From Nereocystis luetkeana (lineage: Eukaryota > Sar > Phaeophyceae > Laminariales > Laminariaceae), in assembly GCA_031213475.1 (NCBI GenBank), contig JARUPZ010000017.1, positions 4,274,849 to 4,338,848 on the forward strand: DNA of 64,000 bases, given 5' to 3'. Within the stretch, counting starts at the first letter, position 1. Each line of letters begins with the position of its first letter. The translations under genes were made by a program, and so were the position numbers. The notes below the pieces were generated by a model, which was not told the DNA's origin, did not search any database, and saw only the letters and a program-made list of their open reading frames with translations. Shown here in pieces: positions 37,051-62,823 of this stretch.

Positions 37051-40000
37051 ATGCGTGCTCATATCGCGACCCTCGCCGTCGCTCTCGGACTAGTCTACTG
37101 CACCAACGCCGCTCCGAGGTACTCCTGCTTCGACCCTCCTGGCGAGGACCAGACCAACCCCCTCGGCGAGGGCATGGAGGACATCGTAGAGGACGAGTGC
37201 TGCGAAGCCCTCGTCGACGAAAGGTGGGTCCACAGTAGCGATGATGAGTAACGTCTCGGCACTTGCATGGCTGTGTTTTCCTTCTGCTGATGTGCGTCGC
37301 TGCTAACGACAGGTGTGCAGACGGTGCTGCTTCTCCTGCAGCTACATATCACACCTGACTGTAGTAGTCAACAAGTAGACTGCTCGTGTGTATAGTGCGC
37401 CTTTCAATGGGAGATAAGCAGACAGCAAAGCAGCCTGGGAGACTCTTTGTCCCCGGGGGGTGGAGGCTAAGGATGCTGACGTCGCCTCGAGTTGCCCCTC
37501 ATAAAATCTGACGATCGCTGACGAGAAGCAACAATCGTCAATCCGGAAACAGAATGAGTGTGCACCCTATCTATGCGTGATAAATCAGATAACAGGGCAT
37601 GGTTTGTTTGTGCTACATGTGCTATATGAACGTACCAACGAGGGGGGAATGCGTAAAGTTATGGCATGGTTCAAGCCTACGTTCCGGCTGGGTAGATGTT
37701 GTCTAGGGAGACACTTAGCTGTAACAACGGCGTGGTATTCAGAGGGTTGTTCAGCGCATAACACGCCTTCTGCTTCACCTGGCGAAAGCGATACGTATCG
37801 ATTTTGCAATTCAGCACTACAAAGCGCTTGAAAATACACCAGGTAGATTCGTATGCGCCCTGCACCTCTGTGGCATGAGCGACATGCGCGGAAAACAACG
37901 ATGCGTCTTGGAATATTGTGCTAGCAATGCTCACGAATGATTCAGGCTGAAGCCCGTGCTGCACATAAGTCCGTGCTGCACATTGTCCGATTGGAGAACC
38001 GAGCTATCAGCATATACGGTATCTCATTTTGCTTCAGTGGATTCGTGATGACTCGAGTAGCTCAACGCTGAAGCTCATGCATGCTGCCTGGATAGCATGA
38101 TGAACAAAAATAGTGTAGCTGGTGCACCTATAGCGCACGAGGGAATGCCTGAGAATGCAGGTTCGTAAGAACTCATCGTTTTGCAGACTTGAGTTGCTGT
38201 GAGCTACGTATTTACTTTCCGCAATAGTGGGCACGGGGCACTGGGTTTGCTGGATGTCGCAGAGGGCGAGAAGAAAAAAATGGAACTTCAGAGAGGAACA
38301 TTGAACCATAAAAAGGGGACGATTTCTGCGACGGCAACTCCGTGATTGGGGGGATGGTATAGGTTGGTTGGTGCCCGAGTAGCTATTACAAGGAACCCTA
38401 CAAAACGGAGACAGACTTGACCCGACCCGTACACCGTTGAGCGCTCGCGCTTCTCGCGGATAGCTGAAAAGCTGAACGTATCACTGCTTCGGTCGCAATC
38501 TCGGGGTCCCGAAGGAATTAACTTGGAGGAGACGCACACACCTGTGAGGCAAGACGAGAGTGTGAGTTTACCCTTTCAGTGGAAACTGCAGTTCGGGTTG
38601 GGGCGCGAACCACTCAAATTCTGAGTAATCTGGGCCCACAAAGGACAGGATGCAAAGAGTTTCCACCTCCAAGGCACACGAAAGTATACGACCTCCGAAC
38701 GTGGTGCAGAGTGAGGTCCGGTCTGACTCGCCATTAGGCGAAAGGATTACGAACTTGAAAAACTCCGCCCCCTCCGTCAGCCATCGGGTATATATCCGGA
38801 TTCAGATGTTTGGAGTTAGCAACGAGTTAAAATGACACACGGCACACACACGCGTTAATGCGGATTGTGGGTCTGCGGGGTGAGCTTGAGTAGACTACAA
38901 GCAAAAAATATGTGCCAGGTGAAAGAACAAACACGACGTTTTGACCCGTCGACTTTTGCACGAACAGTGAAACAAATGACATAGACGTTGTGCCTCGCCG
39001 ACTTTTCCCCGAGCCCCATTGACAGCAAATAAATGTTATTACACTCAAAACTACTCTATTTAATAATTACGGGAGACCATAGTAAATAGGACTAAATATT
39101 GTCAGTAAAAATAAGGAAATATATATATTGGTTTTTGTATGTACCGTAGGTCCTATTAACTATGGTCACCCGTAATAATAGTTGATGACATTCCCTACCT
39201 CGCATGTGAGTTGGACATCGGCCCAAAACTGTGATTACGCTTCAACCCTTTGAGGGTCGATCTTCCGCCCTGGGGTCATTTTACTTGAAATTGGATTAGG
39301 ATTATTTCAACTCGCCGACCTCTTACCCAATTCCAGACCCCTGCTCGTCCACACCCACGGTTAAAGTACCCGACGGTATTTTCCCTCACTATCCCAACCC
39401 TCCCCAGCCTGTCTTCCCAGTTCAGGCAACGGCACCCGTCGGTAACTCCGTGGCCCTCTTGCCCATCCCCTCAGTTCGAATATACCCCCTGTACCTACGG
39501 TTCAATGCTTGTCCACAAACCCCAGATTTCCTCTGCTCAATCTTCCACCTCTAAGAGTCTGTGCAGTTCAGCATTAATTATCAAAGGGGTTATCTCTTTT
39601 AGAGCCAGCCGCAGTCAGTCCCGTATTATGGGGGACAATTAATTACTAAATTTTGAGTGGTTTGCCCCCTCAACGGTACTGCACCACTAAAAAAAATGCG
39701 ACAGCGGTGTTACGTACCCTGTACTCTCGAAACTAACTGCGGAGTAGAGGCCCTTCGTATGATAGTATGGTCCGGGTATATATACCGGTATGTGGGTATC
39801 CGCGTGTTCGCACCGCGCTTGAGTCACGCGGTGCTCTATAATAGCATGGCGTGCTCCATAAACAAAACTTCGTTTTCGAAGTAAGTAACTGTCTGATTAC
39901 GTTGTTTCTGTTTTTTATAAAATTATTGTCTGCTTGCTGCTGCTGTTGGTTTGATGGTTCCTTGAGGGATATCGATCAAGTAGTTTAGTGTAATTAATTG

Positions 40001-43000
40001 TAGATTATAGATAGGGTGATGTATGTTGGCCTTGGAATATATACGGGGAAGTTTGTCGGTTCGCTTTGTTCCGACGTCTGGCGGCGGCGGTAGTTTTTTT
40101 CCGAGGGTGTTCTACGATAGAGGTGGCATATTTCCGCTATATTGTTTCTGAACGACGGGGTTCCTTGACCCGAAATCGTCGGAATGTCGAACTTGATTTC
40201 GAAAAAACTTTTTGTAGACATACATGGGTCATCGGGATTTTCGCCGCGATGCAGTCTTGATTTTTGCTGAAGTCAGTTTTCGGGTTAGGTATGGAGCTCC
40301 TTGAGTGAGGAAACTCAGAGAATTTAGGGCGAACCTCTATCGTAGAACGGGTTAGGGTGAACCTCTATCACAGGACGGACCCGTTCTACGATAGAGGTAG
40401 CACATTTATTTCCGCTATTTTGTTTCTGAAAAACGGGGTTCCTTGACCCCAATCTTGATTTCGAAAAAAAAAAGGTTTTTTGGACTTGGGCCATGGAATC
40501 GTTCGCCGCGATGCATATTCATTTTTTTTGCTGAGGTCAGTTTTCGGCTGAGGTATGGAGCTCCGTAAGCGAGGAGCCCCATAAAAAATAGTGTGAACCT
40601 CTATCGTAGAACGCCTCTACGCCTCTGGCAAGCAGCGTCAGCGAAAAGGACGAGGCATACAATTGATTTGATGTCGTTGGTGGATGATGCCAAGCTTATT
40701 TTCGTGTTTTAGGAGGACACAACGCGATCGATTGTTGCCGGAAGCATATACACAGAAGCGAGTCAGACTTCGCGCATCGTTTTTCTGTCTTCCTTTCCCG
40801 TGGGCAGGTATGTTCAGGTTGTATGATATTTGCATTGAATGCACGGGTGATCGGCGTTCATTCCCACCATGCACTGTTTATTTTGTCAGATGGGAACCCC
40901 CCTAAAAACAAGACTACGCACAGCAGTATATTCACGTCTTAGGGGTTTCGTCTGACTATATATAGGGGTTAAACAAGACTACGTGCAGCGCTGACTACAA
41001 ATAACACAACCCACTACCTATACAAGCGTAACACTTGATAATCCAGTGTGTTTCGAAACTTGGAACGTCCTGCGAGGTATCAGGCTTGAGGTCTTCTCAC
41101 TTTCTGTACTGTTTGCTGTTGTTCGTGAGCGACCAATATCCCTTCTTAGCGCCGTCTCCACTGATCAACGGTACTACCGGAGGATTTCCAGACACTATCT
41201 TTCAGCCCGATACGTACCAAGCGCACACCGCCACACCCAGCAGCATCTCTTCTCTCACCTCAAGCGTCGGACGCCTCCCGTTGTTCGAGAAACGTACATG
41301 CCCTATTTTTGATAAACAACATTTTTGTATTTGCATTGATCGAAATAGTGCATAAAGTTTAGGACAGAGTGACATAATAGACCGAAGGGTAAGTAGTGGC
41401 AGAAACACCAAGACGGGAAACATATTTGCGTATGTGGAGTATTTTGGCTTTGATGGATGTTTCAAATGTGCTTTTTGTCTCATGGTTTCGGAGGTGCACT
41501 GCTTTGTTCGTCATCATCTTCATCACGACAGCCGCTCCCATCTACGCCCCCAGCGAAAGGGGGGAACCCGCACTGCCCAAACGGCACAGCATGATTTCCC
41601 CACCGTGTCCCCACATCGAATCACTGCCGTTTCCCGCGGTCCACATACCACCAACGCTGCTGTTTCCTTGGAGCATATACACGTGTCGGGGTGTTACAGT
41701 GCGGTGACACAGCATCAACGTCGGGCCGGAACCTACTACATGGTACACCATTCGAGTATGTAGGAGGCGCACATCAACCCTCGCGGCAGAAATCTGCACT
41801 CATTTGCACAGCGTGATCCACAGATAACGATCTGCAAGTATCGCGAGCTGAACGTACACCACAATGTGCGATTGAAACGTACCTACACACATACAGTACG
41901 ATATGATGTGCACAACCCAATATGCAAACCTCCGTATTTGAATTGCGATGTTTGCGTCGCGGTCACCCTCTTGTTCTTCGCTTCTTGGCAAGGACCACCC
42001 CTTACCCTGCGGTCCCTGCCCGAGGTGCTCATCTCCTCACTACGATCTTGTTCCTCCTCTATCCCCTGCTCCTCGATCCCCCCCCCCCCCCCCCCCACTT
42101 CCCCTCCCTTTCACCCCCACCCCCTTCCCGCCCCTCCCCTTCCCCACCCTTCCCCGTTCCGCCAACCCCCTTGTACTTCAATCCTGTGGCTTGATACTGT
42201 CAGCGACATCCTCGCCGAGATATTTGTGGTCTGGGAGCCGGTGAAATGTAACTTCGGGCCTGGACTGGTCGCGATCAGCGCAGCTCCACTGTGCAGCGCC
42301 CACAACACGGACGGATGTCGATTCTGTCGCGAGTCGTGCGACAACATCGAGGTACACGACAATAATAATAGGCGCGTTCGACGAAATAGGTAGCACATTT
42401 CCGCTAAACCGTTTTCGGAATGACGGGGCTCCTTGACCCAAAATCGTCGAAATGCCATCCATTCATGTATGTTTCGAAAACTGTGTTTCTGGTATACATG
42501 GGCTATCGGCGAGTATCCGTCGGGATGCATTTTGATTGCGCTGAAGCTGGGTTTTGGGGTGAGGTATGGAGCTCCTCAAGTGAGAGCCTCAGGAAAAAAA
42601 TAGGGCACTTTTACTCTGGCATACGTCAATTTAGACATACGAGAGAGCTATCTCACAGTAAGTAGGGGTGCACCAGAAGCTCCTGAGCCCCTTACATTAG
42701 GAGATCGATCATCTCACCCGATACAATACCTGGAAGAAATTCGTTCGTGCCACCCGACCGGTACTTGTATGCGCGCTGGTCCTAAAACGAATATACGCGT
42801 AACTTTTTTCATCCTAACTGGTAGTTCCTCACTTCTTAAGGAACTCAATTAGTCAGGACCGTTTTGGCCCGAAACGTGCAACCCCTACCGTGGTTCAACA
42901 CGAGATACTGCAGTACCACAACGAGTTTGGCCTCGCTAAAACTCTGAATCCTCTACCGTACCAAGAGCGTTGGTGCCATACAGTCCCGCGGGTGTGCTTA

Positions 43001-46000
43001 GTTGTGAGGGGACTGGGAAATTCGTTATGGGGCAAAGCTGGCCGTATTTTTTGCCTCGGGCGTGCAGTGGTCGTTTGATTTTCACGAGCATCGTTCATCC
43101 ACACTATCTATGCACAAGCATGTGTAGAGCGAACCGAAGAGAGGAGCTACAGAAATCCTTGGTCGGCCGAGCCGGGTGGACCGGGAAAAGCTTGGTATGT
43201 ATACCGGACTTTTCTCTCCGGCCCAGTCGGGTGCTACCTTAGGCTCAGAAGAAGCACGTGTTGGCTAGACTGTCACTGGGACTGACGGTGGCCCCTGAAC
43301 CGAGGACGCGTTATACCCTAGACATAGGACGTTTCCGCTACTTTGTTTTCTAACCGACTGGGTTTCCTACCTCAAAGTCGTCGGAATGCCAATTTTGTTT
43401 AGAAAACCGACTTTTTTTGTATAGTTGGGCCATGGGACTATTTATCGGCATGCAATTAGGTTTTAGCTGTCAATTTTCGGGTGAGGTATATAGATTCTTA
43501 AGTGAGGAGCCTTTTACAATTCAGGGTGTTCAAACCTCTATCGGAGAGCGCCTCCTTATACTATACCAACGGAGGAATTACCCAATAGGGCATGCCTCGG
43601 TGTCCATACAATTTTTGTGTACAATACGTTTGAAACAACACGTACGATAGGCCGAGGTAAGGCGTCCGTTTTTCTCGGAAACAATGTTTGGGAGGTGTTT
43701 CATCATATATATATAATTTCTCGAACTATAAGCCTAAGCAAATGTCTGAGGCACCTCCACCGTAACATATGCTCTTCACCAATGACGGGCACACCTTACC
43801 TGTCACTCCCCCCCCCCCCCCCCCCTCCACCAACGATCTCACAAGGGGCCGAAGTCTTCCCCACAAGCGATTGGTAGTAGGATGCAGCTCATATTTTGTG
43901 TGACTCACTGAATACCCCACGGCGCCCCGTGCTTGATGCAACCATTGTCTGCCTGGGCGGTGAATTCGCGACATTCTCCGTCCCAGCAGTAGTAGGGGTG
44001 CGAAGGTTTGTGGTCTTCCGACTGCGCCCGTGCTTCACAATGACTACAGTCCCCACATTCCTGCCCATCCCGACCCCTCCACCCTCGTTCCTCTCGGGCT
44101 ACTTCTCTTGTCCCCGTAAAAATTTCATATAAACACGCCGTTCTACGCACTTGCCCCACCCGACTCCTTCCTCTGTCACAGGGTGCCTGCGTCGTCTGCT
44201 CGGGCAAGGTGCAGTCCACCACCACCACCACCACCACCACCACCACCACCACCGCCACCACGGACAGTCCGACCTCTTCTCCGTTTGTGTCATCGTCCGA
44301 GGACACCCCGGCGCCGTTCGGCCTCTTCCCGAAAACACCGGCCCCCTTCGTGCAGGCGGCGTTGACGATTACTCCCACCCCCAGCGGAGGAACGTTAGTC
44401 GACACCCCCTCTCCCATCCCAGACGCTTCGGTTAACAACCCTGCCCCCATCACAGAGGCGTCGCTCAACACCCCCGCCCCCTTTGCGGAAACGTCGGTGG
44501 CCACCCCCGCCCCGGTCACTTCGCGCGGTGGCCGTTCCCCCGTCGCTCAGGAATCGCCCGAAACCCCCGCCCCCATCACAGATGCTTCGATCGACACCCT
44601 GGCCCCCATCGCCGAATCGTTGGTGGAAACCCCAGCTCCCGTCACAGTAACGTCGGTCGAGGACACCCGGGCTCCTATCACCGAAGCTTTGGTGGCAACC
44701 CCCGCTCCCATCGCAGACACTTCGCGCGGAGCCCGGGGCCCCATCGCACAGGCGTCTCCCGACACCCCTGCTCCTGTAGCACAGGGTTTGCCAGACACCC
44801 CTGCTCCCATTACGAACGTGGAAACCCTGGCTCCCATCGGGATAGCCCCGCGCAACACCTCTGCCCCCATCACAGAAACGTCGGTCGGCACTGCTTCTCC
44901 AATCACAGAGGCGGAGGAGCCCAACGGCCCCTCCGCTTCGACCCCCACCCCCACAGCAACAGAAGAGGTTTCAACCGATGGCTCCGCTACCGCCCCACCG
45001 ACACCAATGGTGACGATGGCCAACACCACCATCACCACCACCAGCGGCAGCAGCAGCAGCATCAACATCAACAACGACAACAGCACAAGCAGCGGCAGCA
45101 GCAACAGCAGCAGCAGCAGCAGCAGCAGCGTCTCCGGACAGGGTTCTAGCGCGGGCAGGCTTGAGGACGCCAACGATCCCGCGGACTGCGGGTGCGATGA
45201 CAATTTGTCGGCCGCCGGCGCTGTGGTTCTAGCGTCCCAGGGGAAGATCTTGGTGTGCGACCCCACCTGCACCGACGGCAGCGATCTCGTCTGGGGTGAG
45301 CTTGTCAGATGAATTGTACGGTGTTGGTGTTCCTGGATGGTTACTTTTTTTCTCTCCTGAGGTGCTCTAAGTATATACCCCACCAATTCTCGCTTTCGAC
45401 AGCCTGGTTTATGCGGTGGAACCCGCTGAGCAATCGCAGGGTCCAAAATATAATTGGTATCCAACGAGTAGCATCAATATTGTGAACCACGGTCATCGCG
45501 TGGTCAAATTTGGTATCTGATAAGAAATACGAAATATTGTAAGCCACGATCAGGGATTTGACAATATTGTGTCGAGTCTCTCTGGCAGAGGCGCCCATTT
45601 CGTCACTCATATGTTGGCCAAACGGTGCTACTGCGATCGTATGACACGCATGTCATGTTTGTTATTTACGGGGGACGGGCAATGCCACCACAGGTGGCGT
45701 TGTCTAACTTTCTGAGCAGTTCTCACACGAGCAGCTCAACTATCTTACCCCTATGTCTTCGAATAGTGTTTCGTTTGTTCTATAAACCCGAGCAACGTTG
45801 TTTTGCGCTGGCGCTAAGAGAAAGACGCACCGGGTAGGCCAATCATCGTACCAGACTGTAGGTTGCTCGCTGGAGGAGCTAAACCAGCCACACGCCCATG
45901 AGCTATAAGCTACCGTGGCGTTTTTCTCTTTTTGACACAGCCTACTGTTACATAACTAGTTGCAGACGTAGCTGTGTAAGGTGCTCGCGGCCCAGGGGGG

Positions 46001-46924
46001 GGCGTGTTTTGTGCCACCCTCTCTTAACTGAACGGTATCGACCTGGTCTGGGGGCAGACGAGTGTGTACGTTCGCGGGTGTTTTCGCAGGGGCTACTTTC
46101 TTCCTAATCTCTCACATGATTTTAAGGCTACTACAACTTTGAATGAATGTGGTTACAGTTTGCAGCAGATGCGTCCTAGGATAGAGGTAGCACACTCCCG
46201 ATTGAATGTTTTTGAATGACGGGGGTCCTTAACCCAAAGTCGTCGGAATATGCCAGTTTTTCTTCACAAAATGACGTGGTTGTATAACTGGGCGAGGGGA
46301 TCATTCATCGGGGGTGCAATTTGATTTTTTGCTGAATTTAGTTTTCGGGTGAGGTGTGGGGTTCCTCTGGAACCCCAGGAAACTATGAGTGAACCCGTAT
46401 GGTAGAACGCCTCAGTAGTAAGAGACTTAATAAGGAGGATGGGGGGTGAGGATGGAGATGAGGGGCGGTGGTGTATCAGGCTAGTGGGTGTGAAGCAACC
46501 CGCGGCAGGGTTCTTTGCGTTTGGCCTCTTGTTCGATGTGGGGTTCGACGTGCTGCTCCGAACGAACCCGGGGGCTCCACGAGTTCTTGGTAACAGCCGC
46601 GCTGTACCTTTCCATACAAGCACGCTGACACCTATCCTTCTGCCTCTCCTAGCCCTTCATAAACCCCCGCGCCAACTCTTCACGCCAACAAGCTCCGCCC
46701 CCCCCCTTCAGCCGACCCTGCCCCCCCCCGCCGACCCTCGTCCCGTCGCCCTCCCCATAGGCGTGATGAACTGCAACTACTTCGCCTTGGGGCAGAACTG
46801 CCGGGCGTGCGCTGAAATCTGCAACATAGCCGACGACGGAATCTGGCTGGACGATGAAGGGGCGTTCTGTAAACCCTGTTCTGCCATCATCTCAGAGGAG
46901 CCCATCACCGTGCCCGTCCCCTGA
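37051..46924 (+). CDS. Gene A: secreted Cys-rich, mucin-like protein, four exons
   Basis: Exons 37051-37223, 42204-42351, 44182-45295, 46761-46924 (GT-AG, phases 2, 0, 1), giving 532 aa. Exon 1 encodes a signal peptide (MRAHIATLAVALGLVYCTNA) and an acidic segment with CC. Exon 2 holds a 5-Cys module (W..VKCNFGPG, then DGCRFCRESC). Exon 3 opens with CVVC, continues with poly-Thr and about 16 TPAPI-like repeats (mucin-like, likely O-glycosylated), and ends with CGC and ILVCDPTC. Exon 4 holds a 6-Cys module (MNCNYF, CRACAEIC, WLDDEGAFCKPC) and stop. Exons 2-4 match gene B in phase and all 17 cysteines, which supports the model. Exon 1 is joined on phase only across a 5-kb intron. Unspliced, exon 1 would end as a 66-aa secreted peptide, and other short downstream exons are possible. 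No known family recognised; probably wall or surface protein. Confidence 0.75.
37224..39064. other. First part of gene A intron 1
   Basis: No repeats identified. Just downstream of exon 1, AGs at 37311-37312 and 37319-37320 would allow a short 89-97 bp intron and alternative C-termini, one of them Cys-rich (CCFSCSYISH). Confidence 0.4.
39065..39177 (+). mobile_element. MITE-A copy in gene A intron 1
   Basis: AATTACGGGAGACCATAGT to ACTATGGTCACCCGTAAT with an AT-rich centre in the same order as the 4788 copy. Confidence 0.85.
39594..39695. mobile_element. MITE-B copy, diverged
   Basis: TCTTTTAGAGCCAGCCGCAG, GTCAGTCCCG, GAGTGGTTTGCCCCC and CGGTACTGC follow the MITE-B order with small insertions. 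Confidence 0.7.
40108..40349 (+). mobile_element. MITE-C copy
   Basis: Inverted ends GTTCTACGATAGAGGT and ACCTCTATCGTAGAAC. The centre carries TTCCGCTAT, ACGGGGTTCCTTGACC, a T/A-rich middle, GGTATGGAGCTCC and GTGAGGA. A remnant end lies between this and the next copy (40350-40376). Non-coding. Confidence 0.85.
40381..40614 (+). mobile_element. MITE-C copy, head-to-tail with the previous one
   Basis: CCGTTCTACGATAGAGGTAG to TGAACCTCTATCGTAGAACG. Same internal blocks as the 40108 copy. Confidence 0.85.
42371..42606 (+). mobile_element. MITE-C copy in gene A intron 2, right end lost
   Basis: GCGCGTTCGACGAAATAGGT, TAGCACATTTCCGCTA, GACGGGGCTCCTTGACCC and GAGGTATGGAGCTCCTCAAG. Begins about 20 bp after the exon 2 donor. 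Confidence 0.8.
43306..43552 (+). mobile_element. MITE-C copy, diverged, in gene A intron 2
   Basis: GACGCGTTATACCCTAGACA, TTTCCGCTACTTTG, AAAGTCGTCGGAATGCC, GGGCCATGGGACTATT and AACCTCTATCGGAGAGCG. Confidence 0.75.
43870..44050 (-). repeat. REP-D copy, reverse, in gene A intron 2
   Basis: GTAGGATGCAGCTCATA, GTGCTTGATGCAACCATTGT, CTGCCTGGGCGGTGAA and TCCGTCCCAGCAGTAG parallel REP-D. A C tract of about 18 lies just before it (43808-43826). Confidence 0.6.
44209..44935 (+). repeat. Coding Thr/TPAP repeat array in gene A exon 3
   Basis: A CAC trinucleotide run (44218-44252) encodes Thr, followed by about 16 imperfect 30-45 bp units with ACCCC-GCYCCCATC that encode (N/D/E)TPAPI(T/A). Gene B has only two or three such units, so the array expanded in A or shrank in B. 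Confidence 0.85.
46171..46412 (+). mobile_element. MITE-C copy in gene A intron 3
   Basis: GCGTCCTAGGATAGAGGTAG, GAATGACGGGGGTCCTTAAC, CAAAGTCGTCGGAATA, GGGTGAGGTGTGGGG and GTGAACCCGTATGGTAGAAC. Confidence 0.8.
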
Positions 46925-49484
46925 AGTGGGAGTCGGGATCCGAGAATATCGGGTAGGGGGGTCGTATTCCTTCAAGCACTGCGCCGTCATGGCGTGGGAA
47001 ACCCGCCTGCCCCCTCCTCCTCCTGAAATGCGAAAATAAAAGAGGGGATACCGTGGATGGGGGGAGGGGAGGGGATATTTTCTCCGCGGACAGCACCGCC
47101 ATCCCATGGGAAACCCGTTGCCATGATATCATCCTGAATAGGTCATAAAAAGGGGATGCCTCTGAGGTAGGGGGTAGGGGGTCCCTCCTTCAAGCGCTGC
47201 GCCGGCATTCCATAGAAGACCCGTAGACCCCTCACCATCACCGACTCCAGAAACCAAAATCAGGGAGGGAGCGATTTAGGGGGGGGGGAGGCTCTTTTGC
47301 TCCAGCCCTGCCCTACCATCCCCCTTGAGACCCATCACCACCTCCGCTCCGTGTGAGGTAAAAATGCAGCTAGGAGTCTGGGGGGGGGGGGGTGGGGGGG
47401 TTCCCTGCGCCTGGCCCGGCTCATTGCTTGATCTCGGAGGTTGACGCTACGGGAAGGTGGTTCGTCCCGGCTTGGCCTATAGCAAATAGTCCAGTGGAAC
47501 ACGCTTCCGACGTTTTGAGGGGAAGGGGGGGGGGGGGGGGGAGAGCACGGCTCGACTTATTGCGGGGTGGGGCTTATTGATACCCCGTGATGAATTTCCG
47601 TCGGTAGATTACCAAGGGGCCAGAAATGCACCACATTCTGGGCTTCATCGTTTTTTCTTCCACACCCTGCTCACGTATCGATCATTCCCGATCCTCGGTC
47701 TGAGACGTTTATACTATACTTGAGTATGGGCGGTTCGGTGAAACGTGTGTTGTGCGGTTTAGTAGGCACAGGAGGTGACAGGAAGGTGGCCGGAAGCGAG
47801 CAAGGGCAGACCCCCTCCCCCCCTTGATTGCGCCATGTTGAACCTGAACTCCCGGAATTGGTTGGGCTATTTTTTTTTCTCTCTCTCTCTCTCCCAACAG
47901 GAATTGTAGGCAAGTGCCTCGTGCATTTCATGCCTTCATTATTTGTCTCAGCTGTTGCTTTCGGCTTTTATCGTTTTATGTAGTTCTCACTGTGCCAAGT
48001 GCTAGATTTTGTAGTCTGGTTTTATTTTCTGACAGGAGGAGAGAGAGGGCGGCCGGGGAGGATGAGAACGACGAGTGGGTGGGACTCGGGGGGGGGGGGG
48101 AGAAGGGGCACGGTATATTGTCATCAGAATTATGCTTCGCTAAAGTATTACATAAGGTATATTTTTCCATTTGATGCATTATAGAATTTATCGAGAGGAA
48201 ACAGAAGGTACATGTAATATACAAACAACTAGGCTACTTCGGATATGACGTGGTTTTGTAAATTTCGGTTAGGAATTGTATTTTTGGAGACGAAACCCGT
48301 ACCTTTACGCGGAATGAATCAAACCTTGGAATGGTGCACGGGATAGTCGCGGCCGCAGACAAGAAGCGCGTTCGGTAGTAGTACCGGAAGTCAACCCCTT
48401 TCGGCGGCTCCGCCCGGGGAGTTGTTCTTCTTCTCTGCTCGTTGGGAAATCGATCGACTCGTGGCGACTCCCTTGGCGTGGAAAAGGGCCCTGCAAGTGC
48501 CGCATTGGTTTTACACAGTGCAGCGGTCGGTTGTCGCGCTCTTCAGGGTGCACTGCGGGGTGAGGGGGGGGTACTCATCATATAATGTAACGGGTCGAGG
48601 CGGGGTAAACGCGGACAGACACAGGAGAGGGGAGGGCGCATGTCAAGGCAGATAGGTGGGAGGGGGGTCGTGTACTGCTGCTCGTGCACGATACTACGTA
48701 GTAAAATGGAATGGTGTACGACGATGGTGTACTAGGTACACGTCTCTGTGTGTGTTCTGGCTTTGAACGGTGTCGGAGTTGCGTGTGTATCTGGTACCAG
48801 GCAGTTGGCTCCGGCACAAGTTTTTGGATACTGCAAGGGAAGCGGTTTTGCTTCTAAGTAGACATGTGGTACACATTGGGGCGCATGAAAAAACAACTAC
48901 AGTGTAGTTTCCTGCGTGGGAGGTGGTTTGTGGTTGTCAAGTGGGTACCAGAAAGACTTACTGAAGTGGTACGGGTACGCGTTCGGCAAGAAGACTTCCT
49001 CGATGATATTGTTAGGGTCTGTCTTATGATGCGGGTCACGTATATACGAGGTGTGTAGTTCCCTGCGCGCGGAAGGCAAACGTGCCTTTCTTTCTATGAC
49101 TTCCACTATGGGAGTGCTAGTTTACATTTAATTCACGGGTAAAACCACAGGTCAACATACCAACAGCGCAGCTCAAGCAAGCAGCACCAGCACCAGCCCT
49201 TCACCCTTGATGACCGACGAGCACATTCTTTCATATCCCCGCATGCCATACGCACAAGCGGCTGATCAAACGTCGACCGAAAGCACGCCAGGACAGTCAA
49301 TCGCGTCGCCGCACGTTACCAATATCGGTTGGAATGCCGCGGAAACAAATGTCAAGATGCGGGGCAATCGTTCTGCATGCCGTTCCGTGTACTTGGCCGA
49401 ACCGGTGAAGCATCGCTTTTTATTCGAAGAGATTATGCCACTATATTAGTAACATAGTAGCTGGTATTGATCCTTCTCTCTCCT
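46925..49484. other. Gene A 3' flank: degenerate tandem G-rich blocks, no gene
   Basis: Blocks with CCTTCAAGCACTGCGCCGTC, TGGCGTGGGAAACCC and a G-rich stretch recur with decay at about 46970-47040, 47085-47130, 47185-47230 and 47290-47335. G tracts at 47382 and 47525 follow. From 47600 to 49480 nothing is recognised apart from a CT run at 47877-47893. Confidence 0.5.
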
Positions 49485-49487
49485 AAA

Positions 49488-49782: not shown

Positions 49783-49810
49783 GGACAGCGCAAGAGTGGT
49801 TCCGTTGAAA

Positions 49811-51980: not shown

Positions 51981-52942
51981 GCAAGACCAGCCATAAGTAA
52001 GTAAGTGTCAACACCCGACAATGACTATATATAGCAACAACGACAACAACAACACTCAGATGATAAGCGCAGGGTTGCTTCGAAGTACCGTATACGTAGT
52101 GTGTTCTTGTTTCGGTACGATTGGTGTGTACAGCTGTATACCGTGACATTCGTTGTGAACGCCCCCCACGGCGCCTACACATATTATTTGGCGAAAACTA
52201 ATGCCCCGTGGCGTGAACAGAGGTAGGGGGGTGACAAATTTCCCCAAAGAACTAAATAATACGCCGGGACGCGATTTGAAGTTGATGGGAACGTTTTGAA
52301 TGTGAGCAAGCAAAACAGCGACCGGCAGCAAGGGCAACGGCTACACCAGCAGTTATATCAACACTGTTGCCGAAATGAACGCTCTGGACTCATGGAAACC
52401 CCCCTGTTGGATGTGGCCAAACAAACGGCTTGAACACTACCACCCCGGGGCGAACCCAAATCTAGAGGGGGCGGAAAAAGCAAAAGAACAACAATCTAGG
52501 CCGGGTCGTTCTCCTAGTGCTTGTATACACATCCCGGTTGTTTTGTGTCAAGGGGGGGGGGGGGGGGGGGGCGGGGGTGTTGACAGGGCCCGAGGCATTC
52601 ACAGAGGATTTTACGATACAACCACACGAACAGTGAAGCAAGACGAACCCCACAGGCTCACAACTTTGCGTCAAGACTTGCTACTTCGTTTCTAACGTTT
52701 TCGATATATGATATTGAATACAAAGGGGGTTTCGAGGCTGCGGACTGACACCCGCCGGTGCCCTCCGCGCACGTCCGTAATGAATGGCTGAAGGCGTACG
52801 GGTATGCAACTCGAGGCTGTTATTATTAGTGCGACACAGTACCGCCAAGGTGTGCATTCTTAAAAAACTATTTCGAGTGAAAATAAAGAAAACGCTGGAA
52901 ACAAAAGGAAAAACAATATTTCCATCCGTCTTCGGGCGCAGA
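51981..52942. other. No gene seen
   Basis: A G tract of about 20 at 52551-52570. No credible ORF. Confidence 0.45.
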
Positions 52943-53200
52943 GGCGTTCTACGTTAGAAGTTCACCCTCAAATTTCCGAGGCTCCTCACCTTAGGAGCTC
53001 CTGACTTCATCCGAAGAATGACCTCAGCAAAAAAAAACAATTTGCTTCCCGATGAAAACTCCCATGGCCCCAAGTATACAAAACGCCATTTATTTTTCGA
53101 AACAAGATTGACATTCCGACGATTTTGGGTTAAGTAGTGCCGTCATTCAGAAACAAAAAAGCTAGCGGGAAAGCGCTACCTCTATCTATCGTAGAGCGCG
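52943..53200 (-). mobile_element. MITE-C copy, reverse
   Basis: GGCGTTCTACGTTAGAAGTT, GAGGCTCCTCACCTTAGGAG, CCCATGGCCCCAAGTATAC, ACATTCCGACGATTTTGGGT and CTATCTATCGTAGAGCGCG. Confidence 0.85.
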
Positions 53201-55237
53201 TGCGCAACAACACACACCTCGTCCGTACAGCAGCAAGCAGCACTGCAACGTACTTCCTACCAGACGTTCAGCGTCCGTACTGTATACCTGGTACTTCGTA
53301 GGTATATAGCCACAAAACAGTTAGTTGAGCAGCAGCAGCAGCAGTCGATCGAACAAATCGATAGTACGAAGCACCGGCGATTACGTTGGTGCAGGAGACT
53401 CAGCGGCAGCAAGAAGAAGAAGCAGCAGCATAGCGTACAGGGTACGTATCGTGCGGAAACTACGCCGGCACTAGACCTCCGCCGAGATACCAAACAAAAT
53501 ATCAATTACGAGACGGTACTCGTACAGCTTATGAAGCAGGTGAATCGATCTTTCAGCTTTAAGATGAGGAGACACACCATCGAGAGGGGTGACTTTTGCA
53601 AAATAACCATGCTCACGGGGCTCGGCAGCAAACACGTATCGCAGACATAGCAAGAGCAGAAGCAGCAGCAGTAGAACAGCACAGCAGGCAAACAGGACAG
53701 CAGTAGTAGCACGTATTATTCCGCATAGTAAACGTTACATGCCGAGGCGGTACATAGACTATGACCTACGGTACAAGAGCAATGCTACTTGAACATTGAC
53801 TTATACATGGTCATGTGCTAATATTCCATAACAACAGCAGCCCAAGAGCAGCGGCGTACACACAGCAGGAGCAGCCGCAGTAGTCATCGAACGTGCTTTA
53901 CTCTCTATTCCCCCAGGCATCCCCGTGTTTGTTTTCCGCAGGTGCTCAACAAAAGCTCCAATTCACACAAAAAAAAGACACTGGATCGAACAGATACTTT
54001 TGGGATCGACAGTAGGTCGGAAAGCGATTCTCGTTTTTTATTGGATACCTCAACACTAGTCAAGATCACGTTTTGGGGGACGCCGATCAACCACTTCGGA
54101 TAAGGGATACACGCAAGATGAAACAAAAAAAAACACCCGCCATGTCTGGGTTCAGTGCCAGACAAATGCGGGGGGGGGGGGGACCAAAATCCTGTAAAAC
54201 ATAACTGCATAAAAAGCATGTCTTCTTGAATTTCTGATTAAACTTCCCTTGTTCTGTTGGGAAGCACCGTGAACAAAAAAGGGCATTGGGTGTGTAGTGT
54301 AGCACTATGTTTATACAAGACTCAAGGAAGAATCGAAGACGATTCTGGCAAGATGTGGCCCTGTGGCCCTTGAGGTTGGAGGTGAGGGAATGTAATGCAG
54401 GATTCCTAGGAGCTGGCTCAGAACTTAGCTTGCCTTGTTTAGAAACATTCTTGAGCTGTACAAAACCTCTCTTGATGAGAGTTGGAAGGGAGCGGCTGAG
54501 TGCACCGAGAAGGGCTCGATTCGATGCTTGAAGCCCACCCTGCTCCCCATATTAACCCGCTAGGCGGGTAGATGCATTTGTCCGCAAAATATTCGTCCGG
54601 CGCCCCACTACGCTTTTCCTGGCGGCTATCCTGTCCATTGCACTCCATGGAAAACATTGGAGCCCCGGCAATACTCTTGGGGCACTCAGAGCTTTAATTC
54701 TTGTATACCGAGGAAACTTCAGAGCACGATAACATTCTTCGGGTGTTAGAGGGCTTTGATACCACGGTCTATCTCGCAACCACACCATAGCCCGACATTA
54801 CTCCACTTCACACGTCCAGATACATGCACGGCATGTGTTCGGGTCCGCGATATATACGTGTACGAGCACTTGCGAGGTTACGGTGTTCGGGTCGTCTTTA
54901 CTCGTGGTGTCGTTTCGTCTTGTTTGGTTTTGTCCCGCCTTTGTATACCAGGTACACGGTATGTGTTCAAGTACGCGTACGCCTCAACTTTGCGTGGTGT
55001 GTGTATGCATATGGATGCAAATATTCTGTGGATGCGACTTGAAAATAGTGTGTTCCGCTACTATTGTATACGTGCCTGTGCGTTTCGCGGGAGTCGCAGT
55101 ATTTATTTGCCGGTACTGGCTCTCACTTCTGCGTCGAGAAGCCGTACTGTTTTCTTGTTTGAATTACCGTCAAGTATACAAAGCTAGGTTTTTGCATTAT
55201 GCCCCCCCCCCCCCCCCCCCCCCCGCATCATCCCCAG
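53201..55237. other. CAG-rich intergenic DNA, no firm gene
   Basis: AGCAGC-rich stretches at 53325-53440 and 53650-53700. A TACCAGGTA-type motif occurs at 53285 and 54947. A G tract lies at 54168-54181. No convincing gene, though an upstream exon of the 55.2-kb candidate could lie here. Confidence 0.4.
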
Positions 55238-56249
55238 CATGGTCATAGCACTACGCTCATACATGTCAAAGGCCTTTCCATCCCCTGCGGACGTATACTC
55301 CCGACCGCTACCCGGCTAACCAATACCAAGTATCGAATATTAGAAAAACGATTAAACGTGGAAGACCGAATATTTGCAGAGTTATACCACAAAGCCGACA
55401 TTGGCCCATCACTCGAACAAATTCCCAAGGACAAGTGGCAAGCACGTCAGCAGCCAGCTGGTGGATCCCCGGCTTCGGCAGGTACGTTAGGTTCACGAAT
55501 ATTTGAGAAGTTGTGACCTACTGACTCATGCTACGATAACAACCTTGCGCTTCCAAATCTACTGAGGCTGTTTGCTTGGGGAGCTCAAGCCATCACCCGG
55601 AACTGCCGGTTTGATGCAGAAGAAACCGAACAAATGTGAGCTCATTGTCGCGATGTTTAATTCCATCATGGCCTACAGTCGATACAAATCGAAGCAAATA
55701 GGAAACAGACAAACGGTACGGGGCACTAGTCCTTCCGCGGGTGAGAAGCCCCGCTAATCATGATTTGTTTTTAGATAAACATGTGCTAAGCCTACCTATC
55801 TTGACACCCATCTGAAAAACTCTGGAACTCCAAACAAGCAGATCAATGACAGCACATCAGAAAGAAGATATGGGTGAGTTTTTTTTATCATCAAGAGCGA
55901 CCATGATACGACACTCCCCGCTCTTGTCCAGGGGAGATCTAAACAAACACGAACAGAGGGTCTCAAATCGGGCCAAAACACACCAACTCGAGGTTCGCGT
56001 GAATCGTTTTTGTTTCCCAGGTACAACGGACGAGGGAAGTCAGCATGCAGTGAGTAGGCTCTGCGCACCGTCTGCGGTGCTGCCTGCACCCGCTGTATAA
56101 TCTCGTGAAACCCATCCTCTTGCCTGTGCTTGCTTTCAGATTACCGACCACGTGAATGTTTAGACCCACCTATAACAACATATATGTTTCCCCTCGAAAG
56201 AAGTAACAGTCCAAAAACGAAATTCCAAAATCAAAAATATGTGTTGTGA
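55238..56249 (+). CDS. Candidate five-exon gene fragment, unknown function
   Basis: Proposed exons 55238-55481, 55567-55715, 55842-55873, 56021-56049, 56140-56249 end at TGA. Junctions are GT-AG and phases agree (1, 0, 2, 1), with introns of 85-147 bp. The first exon follows a C tract of about 24 and CCCCAG, like other 3' splice sites in this window, and starts in phase 0, so an upstream exon is needed. The product would be basic (RILEKRLNVEDRIFAELYHK, CELIVAMFNSIMAYSRYKSK) with no family I know. The 29- and 32-bp exons were chosen by eye and could be chance; the two longer exons are the better evidence. Confidence 0.3.
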
Positions 56250-56784
56250 GTGTTGCAGCTAGCTGCGCTGTGTGTGACCCCCCCCCCCCCCCCCCTCTCC
56301 ACGCCCCCCTCCTCCCCCCTTCTCTCCCCCCCCCCATTATTCCTCTCCATACCTCGTACATCAAGAACGCCCAGAGCTGCTGACAGATTGACGCCTGCTT
56401 GCGACAGGTAGGTACTGGTGCGCGTGAGTGGTCCTACCGTTCGGAGCAGTTCCATACCTACTCGATCTAGCTTAATCTCGAGAAACATGTGACCGATACC
56501 TCACACCAACACCTGAAACGTTAATCAAAAGTGAACGCAAAACCTCACGGGCAATCCTGTGGCCTTGAAGTATACGACAGTACGAACAATATGCGTAATA
56601 CTCTATTGCTATTCCAGCGATACGGCGTGCATTGTTGGGGTGGTTCTGTCAGTTGAACCCGCCAATCGAACTGTTGCTTGGCCGTGCTACGTAGCCTTAT
56701 CTCTCCATGCGTGTCTGACCTAAACTCTTCACCCCCCCCTTCCACCCCTGCTCACCCCCCCCCGCTCCCCTCCTAGATCAATAT
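56250..56784. other. C-rich tract and flank, no gene
   Basis: C tract of about 18 at 56277-56294, then C/T-rich sequence. Nothing else recognised. Confidence 0.45.
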
Positions 56785-57035
56785 ATTCGACGCTGTCATC
56801 CTTAAGCAAGAATATCCGTCTCGCCAATGTTTCCGTGTACGGCAAGATGCAGCTCACCCTTCATGCGAGTCGCCAGACTCCTCACGACACCTTGTGAATG
56901 TGTGCGAGCAGTGTCTGCCTGGATAGTGACAACTGGACGTGTTCCATGCCCGCCCGGCAGAGATGCGAGGGTCTATGGTCATGCATGCGACCACAGCCAC
57001 GCATGACCATGAGTGCACCCTCTCCCCCCTCCCCT
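56785..57035 (-). repeat. REP-D copy, reverse
   Basis: TATTCGACGCTGTCATCC, AAGATGCAGCTCACCCTTCA, TGCGAGTCGCCAGACTCC, TGTCTGCCTGGATAG, GATGCGAGGGTCTATGGTCA and CATGAGTGCACCC. The left end abuts a C-rich stretch (56728-56768). Confidence 0.8.
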
Positions 57036-58153
57036 CGTACTCGATGCTGTTCTCACACCTTTCACGCGTTCCTGGAGTAAGTGAAGGGATGCGACGAAGT
57101 ACACACCCACTATATATGTTGATGCGGTCACCGATAAGCTACAGATATATACTCAAATAATGCGGAATGGGCACCTAAAACAAAAGGTTCCCCACACATG
57201 ACGTCTCCTGTTTTCTCCCCCTCTCCTTTCCTCTTGCGCATCCTCTCCGTCGCAATATTCCTCGTTCACCTCACACTCCCGTCTCCTCCTCGGGTCTTGA
57301 AGACACGGCGGCACAAAGACATGGGGACTGGCTGGTGCTCCAGGTGCCCGACAAGCTATTTATGAAGGCGCAAAGCCTACGTCACTGACCTAAAGCTAGC
57401 GAAGAAGCATAAAACCGTGTACTTACTAGACATGAAGCTTGCCGAGGGAAGGCACCATAAGACACCCAGAGGAGGTTCAAACGGTGAACGCGACGAGAGC
57501 ACACTCGGGAGGGTGGGTGGGGGGGGAAGCAAATACTCCAGTGGTATCTTACCGTAACGTCTACCCACCAATACTCGGACATAAACATACTTCCACGATC
57601 ATCTAACTGATCCCAACCCTCCGTCGGTCGATTCTAGCCTCGGAGTTTCGAACACAAGAAGTGGTGCTTGATCAGGGGAGGGGAGGGGGGGGGGGCGGGG
57701 AATAGAATAAGACAAAAAAAAACAGACATACAAACGAGACGCGCGCGCTCATTGGCCTCCGCAGAACTATAACCGAGACGAGGGACCGGCCATATGGTCA
57801 CCAGGGGCAGAGACACTTGTGTCGTCCAAAGCTTCAACTCGGCACTCCCGTTGTCCCGCCCTAGTCGAGGGGAACATGTGAACCAACAACGCCTGGGTGG
57901 TAAACACCTTACTACATGCCCTGGGGTAGCCGCCGAAATCTCAGTCTGCCGTTCGGTGGGGAGGGGTGAGGGGGCAGGGGAACAACCTCAGGGGGGGCAA
58001 ACTAATGCTACCCCCCGACTACCAACGCCATCCTACACGTCGTATGACCTTCCAAACCTAGTCCCACACCGCCAGCGACGAAATCCTCCGCTCAAATAGT
58101 AGATGCTGTCTTAAAGGTGCCACCGTCCCTTACTGTAGATGGTGACGGGTTTC
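57036..58153. other. 3' flank of gene B, no gene
   Basis: G tract near 57677-57690, no recognised element. Probably includes gene B's 3' UTR. Confidence 0.4.
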
Positions 58154-61100
58154 CTATGATACGATGGCTGAGCAAGGCTTGCAGAAGCTTCCCTCGTCGT
58201 CAAGCCAGCTCCCCCCCTCCGAAAGCGTGCAGGGTTCAGCGCAGCCCCGGCAGTCCTGTCCCAGGCCGAAGTAGTTGCAGTTCATGACACCTGAGGAGCG
58301 GGCGGGGAGGAGGGAGGGAACGAGGGGAAGAGGGGGGGGTGGATGTGGGGGTGATTATCTCTGCCGGTGGCCACGTTTGGAGTGTGCTGGTGCAAGAGGC
58401 TTGCTGCGTTGGTGAAAGGGGGAGAGGGGGGGGAAGGGGGGTACTGACGCGTGCTACGGTGGAGGTGACATATTTCCACCGGAATGTTTGCCGAATGACG
58501 GGGTTCCTAGACCTAAACTCGTCGGAATGTAAATCTTGTTTTCCAAAAATGACGTACCTGGTATAGTTATACTTGAGCCATGGGAGAATTAATCGGGATG
58601 CAATTAGATTTTTGCGGAAGTACGTTTGTGGGTGAGGTATGGAGCTTCTTATGTGAGAAGCCTCATACATCGTGGAACGCTTCTACTCATTATCATGCGT
58701 GGCCGCTATCGTATGCCCATGGTGGCGGGGGGGGGGGGGGGGGGGGGGAGGGAAGGGGCAGGAGCGGAAAATCACCCATTCAGAACAATACCGACGTCGT
58801 TTTATACAACTTTGTTGAATTTTGTGCTACATTTATCAGTTTTTGAGTTGTAAAGTGGCATGATGGCATAGGGGCCGACACCTTTACTTCGCCACGACGG
58901 AGGTGTAGCACCAGAATATTTGTTGGTGAGCTTCCTCAGATTGAGGAGCACCACATAGCCCCACACCAGAGGCATGGCACGAGGAAATATGCAAGGACCA
59001 TCGACGCGGGGAACCTTATCATGACGTAGAGTGGTACAGCGAGTCATCAACGTTCCAGGGTATGCAGAGTTGCACACTATGTTGACGCGTGCTACCGTGG
59101 AGGTGCACTGTTTTGGGACACAAGGCTTCCTCACACCAGGAGCTCCACACTTCAGCGCAAACCAAAGTTCAATGGTTGAGGAATGATCCCATGGCCCAAG
59201 TACAATGCTTTTTTTACAAAGCAAGATTAGCATTGTGAGGAGTTTGGGTTGGGGGAGCCCCGTCATCCAGAGAACATTTTAGCGAAACTGTGCCACCTCT
59301 ATCGTAGCACGCGTCTGTTTGCTAAGGCTCCTCGCATGACAATTCAACGAGCTATAAACCTCACCCAAAAATCGTCTAGATTTATTTCACGAAAGTGCAC
59401 CTCGACGAGCAGTCCCACGCCCCTGGTACACAAAGCATTCACGCTGCTGGCCGTAACTGAGATCCCGGCGATTTTCGGTTAGGGAGTCCCGCCATTCATG
59501 GTACATGCTGTGGCCAAACCGTGCTAGCCCTATTGCAGCACGAGTCGTTACCACCGTGCCACGATACCGGTTAGTTCCTAACTTGAGCTCCGTCAGCCAG
59601 AAACATTGCGGCCGGAGCGTTCTACTCGTATCCACCAAGGTGCGGGGAAGGAAGGAGTGTGGCGGTTAGCGTTGGGCGTACAGAGAGCACAGCGCAGGCC
59701 CAGTCCGTCCTCACGTTTCAGAGACGGTAGTGGGTCGTCACGGAATCGCTTTTCCTCCCAAGCGTGCGGCGGGCAACGCACGCGCCGCGCGTATACAACA
59801 CCAACGAATTCTGGGCGATGCCAATGGCTATGTGCTTGCCAATTACGAATGTTATTACTAGCGGAAACCCAATGTCCGGCGCAAGCAACGGCAACGACTA
59901 TTTGTACGACTAAACTACGACCGGCAACGTGCTTGACCACCAAGCAACAGGCAAAAATAACACCGAGCTCATACAAACAGTTGTGGCTATCATGGCCTGC
60001 TACCAAGGGAAGCCAACATATATGGAGAAGCCAGCGACTACCAAACAATACCACGGAATATTAGTGGCACTTCGTTGAATACACCCCATAGTTTAGAGGT
60101 TTTGAGATTGAGGGTTGGGGGTGGATTGTGATCGCAATGCGAGGCGAACACCAACGCGCAAAACCGCACCACTGTCAAACCTCCCAATCCTTCACATGGC
60201 GTGCGTTGAACGAGTTCTGCCTCAGGGGTTGATTTTCTCCCGCACCTAACGCCCCCCAGTGGGGGCAGACGGCGGCACCTCAACCGAGATAAGCTGTCCA
60301 ATACTACCTCCCCGTCCGATGCTCACGATTTCGAATATATCCCTTTTATTCGTCAGATACCTAACCGGGGCACGGGATTGTGAATGAACGGAGGCCTGCT
60401 TTACAAGCTTTCTCAAAAATGTTTACATGATTTGTCGAAATGGGCCGTTGTAGCTCAGAACCCGAACGTACCCACCCCCATCTTGGTGAGGGTTGCTTCG
60501 TTTCTTGATGAGGCGTTCTGACTCATTGCAAACCTTCTACCCCACGACGTCCCCTTAACTCCCCACCATGGAGTAAGGTAAGGGTGCACCTGCCACGTTC
60601 CAAGGCTCCTCTCACCCGAGCAGCTCTGTGTATCACCCGAACGCGGATCAAAAATACAGAGCACGCGCAACCTTTTATAGGGTAATTCTCCCGATTGAGA
60701 AGGCCCATGAGTCCGAAAGGGTTTTGTTAAAAGATGCAAACTCTGTCGCAGGACGTGTCTACCCCCCCCACCCCTACCTCCCGATTTACAGCAGGAGCTA
60801 GCGAAGCCGTATCTCACCCCATATCAGGTCGGTCCCGTCCACGCAAGTAGAGTCGCACATCAGCGTCTTCCCCTGCGTCTCGAGCACCAAAATCTCGATC
60901 TCCGAGATGTCCTCCAGGCAGTAGCAGTCCTGCTCCTGCTCCAACGCACCCCCGAAACCCCCACCAACTCCTTCGAAGCTGCTGCCGGAGTTTTCCATCG
61001 GCGAAGGCGTGTTGGGGAATATTCCGAAGGGGGCAGGGGTGTCTCCCGAGGAAGAGAAGAACCCAGAAGGAGCGGAAGTGGGAGAGGAAGAAGGGCTGGC

Positions 61101-62823
61101 GGTAGTTTCGAACCCGAAAATATCCGAGCACGCGAGACAGAGCCCCTAGTTGAACATTGTATGGCATGTATGAAAATCGGGAGGGGGGTGGCGCGGAGGG
61201 GAAAATGGTTCATCAGAGACCTTTGGTTAGAGGCCGCGTTTATGGGGGGAGCGGGGGGAATCGTTTTCAGCCTGTATGTCTACTGCACACACAGGCTTTC
61301 GGGACTCAAGTGCTAGGAGTTACTCTAGCGTGGGGTCGTCTTTCACAGCATGGCGGACAGGTCCCTATAGGGGGCTGTTTGCTTGAAGTCACTCAGAGTC
61401 ACTCAGTCGAAGGCTTACTTTCTGACTCATCCGGTCTGCCTGGTGTTGTTTTCAGTTCGATTCTTTGTATTCGAGGCCTGCTACAGTAGACGTACACCAT
61501 TTGCTGGCTGAGATTCCGAGAGGAGCACAAGGCTATTACTAGTATAGCCAAGTCAAAAGCTGATTTAAAACAAAGGTGAAAGCGCAATGGTTGCCGAGAC
61601 ACCTCAAGGCCTAACCGCACACAAAGCATTGGCAATTTCGCGAAGCAAGAGCGACCTTTCGACAACTTTTCGATTTTAGGAGCCTCGTCGTTCAGACATC
61701 GGTTTAGCTGAAATTATGTGTCTACCACAAATCGTAGCACGTATCTTATTGCCAACCGAAAAAGGTGGCTTCTGACGCTGCCGTGAACACAAAGCAAAGT
61801 TATGTCCAGTTTTCAGCCGGGTGCAGGGGCATCCGCTGCTCTCGCTGGAGTGGCCGACACAGAACATAAAACGAAACGACTGGTGCTACGGTAGGGATGC
61901 CACTCCTTGTGTACAGTACTACATTTTCATGTGGAGGAGAGCCACACGGCCGTGTGACCATCTTCAAATATCTTGTGGCGTTCTTGCGTCTTCACGATTT
62001 TCAATTTCTCGCGATGTCCCTCGGCGGGTGGATTGTCTGTTGCTCTTCGGCTAAAAACTCTATCTACTTGCGTCCAATGCTGCGTGAGATACGGAGCCAC
62101 TCGTCCGAGTGATGCCAACCCGGGAGTGAAGACGGGGGTACCTCCCCTTGCCGTGAAACCAGTCAAACCGCCCGTGGGGGGGGTTTCTCAGTTGAGGATC
62201 CCGGTATAAGCTGCCACCAGCGCCACGGTAAATACGGGCGGCGGCTTATTTCATCGAGATTGTTACACAAAAGAGAGCTCAATATACCACCAGAAACAAA
62301 GTGGCTGCGAAGGGCTGTGTTTCCCGACGTCGGGCGCTACTTCTCTGTACGTTAGTCTTGGAGAATGTTGGTTCACGGTAGTAACCCTATCATACGAAGC
62401 GGTAGTTGCTCACCTGAAGGAAGCTCAATCTGTCCGAACATGTCGAGCCCAGACAGGGCAGCCCCCGTCGCGGGCCAAGTCTCTTAGCGCGGTCATACAG
62501 GCGAGGCGCACTGAAAAAGCCTGAACTCGTCACACGACGACTCGCGCCCGACACTCGCACACAGATTCATGATACATAAAACTCAGCGGTATGCGCCCTC
62601 ACACATCCGATCGTCTACTACAGTAGATCGGCAAACGAGGATTCGATACGTATCTGCCGCTAATCCGTCCCGCACCTCGAAGCCGTTGCACGATTCGTGA
62701 CAGAATCTGCAGCCGTCCGTGTCGTGGGCCCGGCAGAGGGGGGCTTCCGATATCGGCAAGTCTCCCGGCCCGTGGTTGCAGTTGACGGGGTCCCAAACCA
62801 CCAAGCGCCCCGACAGAACGTCG
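58154..62823 (-). CDS. Gene B: paralogue of gene A, exons 2-4; exon 1 not found
   Basis: Exons (in gene order) 62823-62676, 61145-60818, 58290-58154, with GT-AG junctions and the same phases as gene A. The first is 148 bp, exactly as in A. The product carries WDPVNCNHGPG and DGCRFCHESC, then CLAC, a short Thr/Ser/Pro linker with DTPAPF, DCYCLED and TLMCDSTC, then MNCNYFGLGQ, CRGCAEPC and WLDDEGSFCKPC, ending CSAIVS and TAG. All 17 cysteines of A's exons 2-4 are present. The mucin-like linker is about 260 residues shorter than in A, and A's C-terminal extension (EEPITVPVP) is missing. The acceptor at 62824-62825 calls for an upstream exon ending in phase 2. None was found up to 64000, so the signal-peptide exon is probably outside the window. 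Function unknown; likely secreted. Confidence 0.8.
58447..58682 (+). mobile_element. MITE-C copy in gene B intron 3
   Basis: ACGCGTGCTACGGTGGAGGT, GAATGACGGGGTTCCTAGAC, GAGCCATGGGAGAATTAATC, GGTGAGGTATGGAGCTTC and CATCGTGGAACGC. A REP-D scrap (58683-58728) and a G tract follow. Confidence 0.8.
59085..59316 (-). mobile_element. MITE-C copy, reverse, in gene B intron 3
   Basis: ACGCGTGCTACCGTGGAGGT, GATCCCATGGCCCAAGTACA, CCCCGTCATCCAGAG and CCACCTCTATCGTAGCACGC. Confidence 0.8.
59317..59549 (-). mobile_element. MITE-C copy, reverse, next to the previous one
   Basis: GGCTCCTCGCATGACAATTC, CCTCACCCAAAAATCG, GGCGATTTTCGGTTAGGGAG, CCCGCCATTCATGG and CCCTATTGCAGCACG. More diverged than its neighbour. 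Confidence 0.65.
59593..60064. other. About 460 bp open on both strands in gene B intron 3
   Basis: Both strands keep an open frame of about 152 codons here, neither starting with ATG. GC-rich relative to its surroundings. I cannot recognise a protein in either strand. Confidence 0.3.
61559..61744 (-). mobile_element. MITE-C copy, reverse, old, in gene B intron 2
   Basis: CACAAAGCATTGGCAATTTC, ACAACTTTTCGATTTTAGGA, GCCTCGTCGTTCAGACATCG and CACAAATCGTAGCACG keep the MITE-C order with many differences. Confidence 0.5.

Follow-up and report, generated by a model that had tools for sequence, protein, structure and literature searches.

Chimeric arabinogalactan proteins (AGPs) of brown algae were reportedly treated by Herve et al. 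in 2016. Two further groups of stramenopile proteins can be likened, by general description, to those analysed here. The pleuralins and frustulins of diatoms are wall proteins that combine Cys-rich domains with stretches rich in proline, and the Car-type mucin-like proteins of oomycete cyst coats are secreted proteins whose T/P/A-rich repeat arrays constitute the shared feature, the Car repeats themselves being octapeptides. We analysed a stretch of 64,000 nucleotides of the Nereocystis luetkeana genome (positions 4274849-4338848 of contig JARUPZ010000017.1, here C17; the whole stretch is referred to as the window), which contains gene A and exons 2-4 of gene B. We propose, with evenly poised confidence, that A and B are two members of a family of nine genes encoding secreted matrix glycoproteins with two heads and apparently no anchor, and that each of these proteins would act as a bivalent bridge.

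Chimeric AGPs are reported from brown algae in three papers (PMC5100021, PMC11468063, PMC8307928). According to these, some chimeric AGP motifs in Ectocarpus are associated with mannuronan C5-epimerases (PMC5100021), and in Fucus zygotes an AGP-binding reagent disturbs the patterning of alginate and fucan (PMC5100021; also PMC11468063 and PMC8307928). As far as these accounts describe them, chimeric AGPs share with A and two other family members, G5 and G9, a secretion signal, a TP/AP-rich linker joined to another domain, and a likely location in the wall. The additional non-AGP domain expected of a chimeric AGP corresponds here to two conserved ten-cysteine halves. The expected N-terminal signal peptide is present by sequence rule, as all eight first exons read encode a short n-region and a hydrophobic core, with small residues where cleavage is likely; an earlier sequence-only reading of the window had likewise described the proteins as secreted. 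The family differs from the chimeric AGPs of these accounts in having Cys-rich halves on both sides of the linker, without a Pfam match, and in that six of the nine linkers show no clear AGP-type enrichment.

Gene A lies on the + strand at 37051-46924 (window positions, unless prefixed by a contig) and encodes 532 residues in four exons. Exon 1 (37051-37223), which ends in phase 2 and recurs at nine places on C17, encodes the start of the N-terminal ten-cysteine half and, before it, the signal peptide, which by rule covers about 37051-37110. Exon 2 (42204-42351, 148 bp) carries the W..V.CN...C..GCRFC..SC module of the same half. Exon 3 (44182-45295, ending in phase 1) encodes the final two cysteines of the N half (GACVVCS), the linker and the first four cysteines of the C half, and exon 4 (46761-46924, including the stop codon) the module VMNCNYF..GQ.CR.C...C...WLD...FCKPCSAI. 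The last three exons were defined by gene model and genome search. Gene B, on the - strand, encodes 262 residues. Its exons 2 (62676-62823, 148 bp), 3 (60818-61145, with a 65-residue linker at 61124-60930) and 4 (58154-58290, including the stop codon) span 62823-58154 of the window, and its exon 1 is found at C17:4342220-4342045, 3.2-3.4 kb beyond the window end; exon 4 was recovered by genome search as well as by the gene model. Both models have open frames, GT-AG boundaries at every intron and intron phases 2-0-1, which bears out the sequence-only reading in treating A and B as real genes, and their convergent orientation was also correctly described. The claim of an identical 148-bp exon 2 holds for length and fails for sequence, as 103 of the 148 bases are identical. 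A dispersed repeat with the core GACGGGGTTCCTTGACCC also occurs in the window, at 40154, 40432, 42422, 46218, 50372 and 58497. These six copies have at most three mismatches, against 0.05 expected; four are in introns of A, one is in intron 3 of B and one is intergenic between A and B.

To the sequence-only reading A and B were a pair of paralogues. Searches of the genome (465 Mb, 1987 contigs) placed exon 1, exon 2, the end of exon 3 and exon 4 at nine C17 sites each, all within 4.23-4.63 Mb. In tblastn comparisons, rows from 24 or 28 bits upward were considered. These counts are lower bounds, since the best candidates were scored (10, 10, 9 and 9 respectively), and intra-cluster stretches of 44, 22 and 10 kb were covered through the genome-wide searches only. 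Seven genes are complete: G1 (+), G2 (-), A (+), B (-), G5 (-), G6 (+) and G8 (-). All seven models have four exons, phases 2-0-1, the same splice types and a 148-bp exon 2. Exons 2, 3 and 4 of G7 (-) were read and its exon 1 was located only, at 4556479. The frame at the start of G7 exon 3 disagrees with the frame at its end, upstream of C17:4539331, and this break is either a frameshift or an assembly error. G9 has exons 1 and 2 at 4630418-4627315 and exons 3 and 4 at 4585399-4579855, with compatible phases (the parts were also numbered G10 and G9). We infer that the two parts are one gene because the four exon counts are nine, nine, nine and nine; intron 2 would then be about 42 kb long (C17:4627314-4585400), whereas its length is 0.8-1.8 kb in the seven genes that are complete. 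A tenth place is on contig C11, near 5929211 (in the region 5928000-5932000), where exons 1 and 2 are present in frameshifted form, with broken frames.

The nine genes in the cluster rule out a simple A/B pair. In trees of the seven complete genes, with G7 and G9 left out, the grouping of A with B received no support (at best 51 of 100, for exon 4 alone), and the exon 1 tree joined G2 to B at 55. Only the split of G1 and G2 from the rest was well supported (99, and 92 and 93 for the two halves), and we therefore claim no history of shuffling or conversion. A shared promoter was rejected, as the 350 bp upstream of the seven genes could not be aligned apart from CCA-rich runs.

The encoded proteins consist of a signal peptide, an N half with ten cysteines, a linker, a C half with ten cysteines and a short tail. 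The N half is coded by exon 1, exon 2 and the first seven codons of exon 3, and the C half by the end of exon 3 together with exon 4. No membrane anchor is apparent, because in seven of seven genes hydrophobicity over 15 residues peaks in the signal peptide; by reading, a hydrophobic C-terminal tail is found in none of the models. Both halves are acidic in all seven genes, with isoelectric points of 4.1-4.3 and net charges of -14 to -19 (N) and -5 to -13 (C).

When seven-row alignments of the N and C halves were compared with hhalign, they matched with a probability of 83% (E 9.1e-6) over 41 columns at 32% identity, with W..V.CN...CR.C...C...C..CS paired in the two halves. A scripted rerun of the comparison gave a score of 30.4 (probability 71.5, E 3.6e-5). 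The highest control scores were 23.4 for 200 full column shuffles and 26.3 for 200 shuffles that kept the cysteine columns, so that the real score was reached by 0 of 400 shuffles, and the reversed profile scored 11.1. Since the controls scored below the real comparison, the likeness of the halves exceeds cysteine spacing, and the protein is best described as a dumbbell with two related heads. This relatedness was overlooked in the sequence-only reading.

The mature protein contains 20 cysteines, all of them invariant in the seven complete genes, and the family cysteines are likewise invariant in the parts of G7 and G9 that were read (G7 exon 1 not included). The 17 conserved cysteines that had been counted in exons 2-4 thus become 20 once exon 1 is counted. 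The ratio of nonsynonymous to synonymous substitution rates (dN/dS) for A and B is 0.188 over 504 aligned coding bases, and so is not near 1. For the 21 pairs of complete genes it is 0.188-0.334, with a median of 0.258. Linkers were excluded from these comparisons, and two G6 exon 4 codons were omitted from them and from the sliding-window counts below. The coding parts outside the linker are under purifying selection. Neutral decay is ruled out by the dN/dS values of 0.19-0.33; the C11 copy differs in this respect, its frames being broken. When the genes were aligned at the DNA level, all four exons matched in each of the 21 pairs, and patches outside the exons matched too in 17 of the 21, over up to 494 bp at 62%. 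It had been stated that the DNA between the cysteines has diverged, which is broadly right, with the exception of these patches. The further claim of selection on a secreted, disulfide-bonded fold stands as regards a fold that conserves cysteines, given the 20 invariant positions, the A-B dN/dS of 0.19 and the signal-peptide-like N termini; the disulfides themselves are presumed.

Clustered genes together with a dead copy on another contig, C11, would also suit secreted recognition or defence proteins, that is, a diversifying array binding microbial, grazer or gamete ligands, in which copy variation is the point. The proteins are of a suitable type, being Cys-rich and secreted with short variable loops, for example the one that follows cysteine four of exon 4. 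In 7-codon windows, of which the five with the highest proportion of nonsynonymous differences (pN) per exon were considered, the highest ratio to the synonymous proportion (pN/pS) was 0.99, around that same cysteine. None of these windows exceeded 1, however, and strong diversifying selection was rejected; dN/dS was no higher than 0.334 in any of the 21 pairs. We consider a recognition or defence role unlikely.

The linkers vary greatly in length, from 65 to 457 residues over the family: 65 in B and G8, 68 in G6, 84 in G1, 119 in G2, 152 in G5, 327 in A and 457 in G9. The linker of A (44203-45183) is 47% serine, threonine and proline, and contains TPAP[IVF] repeats with runs of threonine and of serine. 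Proline, alanine, serine and threonine together make up 0.60 of the linker in A, 0.61 in G5 and 0.74 in G9, compared with 0.37-0.48 in G1, G2, B, G6, G7 and G8. A chimeric AGP would be expected to have a P/A/S/T-rich region in which AP, SP, TP and VP dipeptides cluster, and AGP-type dipeptides were counted in each linker and in shuffled versions of it. Counts of 40 in A, 34 in G5 and 132 in G9, against shuffle means of 26.9, 20.1 and 73.6, were each reached in 0 of 2000 shuffles. The count in B was borderline (reached in 90 and 72 of 2000 shuffles), and G1, G2, G6, G7 (partial) and G8 showed no excess. The term mucin-like, which the sequence-only reading had used, is a better fit for A, G5 and G9 than for the remaining genes. 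The repeat unit in G9 is 36 bp long, is present in 34.2 copies and reads TPAPITPAAPVD, while units of 33 bp occur in a short segment of A, and units of 21 and 54 bp in G5. Because the units differ, the arrays of A, G5 and G9 seem to have expanded separately.

The AGP-type linkers of A, G5 and G9 raise the question of whether the family consists of chimeric AGPs in the strict sense, in which the linker, through the glycans it bears, would provide the function and the Cys-rich ends would serve as mere caps or anchors. The association of some Ectocarpus chimeric AGP motifs with mannuronan C5-epimerases (PMC5100021) would fit such a role. It is difficult to reconcile with the other six linkers, which lack clear enrichment and are shorter (65-119 residues in the five measured whole; G7 is partial), or with purifying selection on the ends, and we regard it as improbable.

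One motif recurs in otherwise dissimilar linkers. It lies around TPAPxGIFPxTPAP, has the form (I/L)F(P/S)xTP and is present in eight of the nine linkers, the remainder of which could not be aligned by eye; it may serve for cleavage or for binding. Were it a cleavage site, the proteins might be precursors from which a cut in the linker, made after secretion at the motif or close to it, frees one small disulfide-rich signalling protein or two, and the C half by itself does resemble a small Cys-rich peptide. G9, however, lacks the motif, a dibasic pair occurs in none of the eight linkers counted (G7 excluded), and the long repeat arrays of A, G5 and G9 would be needless for a simple spacer between two products. 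Processing of this kind is in our view doubtful.

Both halves of the seven complete genes were compared with Pfam, and no match passed the cut-off; for the C halves there was none at all. The best Pfam match was to Fer4_6, at E 0.97 with exon 2 of B alone (10 bits, where the cut-off is 25) and at E 1.5 in one of seven N halves. No chain among the PDB sequences matched either half at E <=10, and NCBIfam gave no match to the N half. In PHROGs the C half gave matches at E 0.06-0.37, which were treated as noise. Relatives were found in 0 of 11 (N half) and 0 of 8 (C half) candidate stretches in IMG/VR, and in 0 of 8 in GTDB genomes, where the C half only was searched; a viral or bacterial origin thus finds no support in IMG/VR with either half, or in GTDB with the C half. 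Within these six libraries, the last four of which (IMG/VR, GTDB, NCBIfam and PHROGs) were searched in part, and with the alga's own genome as the only eukaryotic genome covered, the earlier statement that the proteins belong to no recognised family is borne out, and the pair of Cys-rich domains appears to be undescribed. No title or abstract on the nine-gene family was found in the literature covered, most subscription papers being outside that coverage. Secreted modular glycoproteins of the matrix whose linker is AGP-like or mucin-like are already known as a general kind.

Another Cys-rich family, EsV-1-7 (PF19114), has 90 members in Ectocarpus species 7, and its proteins are hypothesised to be zinc-finger transcription factors, according to PMC12629598. 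The nine-gene family is Cys-rich as well, but PF19114, which was in the Pfam library scanned, matched neither half at E <=10 in any of the seven members. EsV-1-7 motifs do occur elsewhere in the window. An open frame of 573 residues at 21275-22996 (-) contains 11 of them (PF19114, E 9.2e-147), and fragments at 29795-30241 and 30638-30952 (+) match at E 4e-19 and 2e-5; the latter are perhaps a decayed or split second EsV-1-7 gene. Taken by themselves, the EsV-1-7 motifs make a brown alga the likely source of the DNA. Three open frames with PPR repeats are found on the + strand at 8024-9607, 10053-10889 and 14340-15941, the first of which begins with a long tandem repeat coding for SLPP. The three are perhaps exons of one gene.

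We favour a matrix cross-linker because a secretion signal and two related heads are combined with a flexible S/T/P-rich spacer and no apparent anchor, because that spacer is AGP-like in three of the nine genes, and because chimeric AGPs are reported from brown-algal walls. Removal of the signal peptide would leave an acidic ten-cysteine N domain and a related acidic ten-cysteine C domain, with five disulfides presumably closing each of them and the flexible linker holding them apart. The linkers of A, G5 and G9 carry repeated TPAP-type motifs, a kind that is glycosylated in arabinogalactan proteins. The extracellular matrix is the most likely site of the protein. There, the two related heads might share one kind of ligand, either a wall polymer or a protein partner, with the reach of the cross-linker set by the length and glycosylation of the linker. 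The suggestion of the sequence-only reading that these are brown-algal wall glycoproteins is plausible and fits the published chimeric AGPs. Two observations weigh against the cross-linker as proposed. The relation between the halves is carried by about 41 columns of shallow alignments (seven paralogues), and AGP-type enrichment is unclear in six of the nine linkers, so that a glycosylated linker cannot unite the whole family. A more specific version, which we offer as a speculation with little probability, is that the nine clustered genes encode matrix rulers, whose homologous disulfide heads grip one wall polymer while linkers of 65-457 residues tune mesh size or stiffness through expression, the head being a new fold without relatives outside the lineage.

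To our knowledge, the wall proteins of brown algae are far less known than the polysaccharides. A nine-gene family with an apparently undescribed domain pair and a series of linker lengths provides defined candidates for matrix-organising proteins, and the domain itself would be an addition for family libraries.

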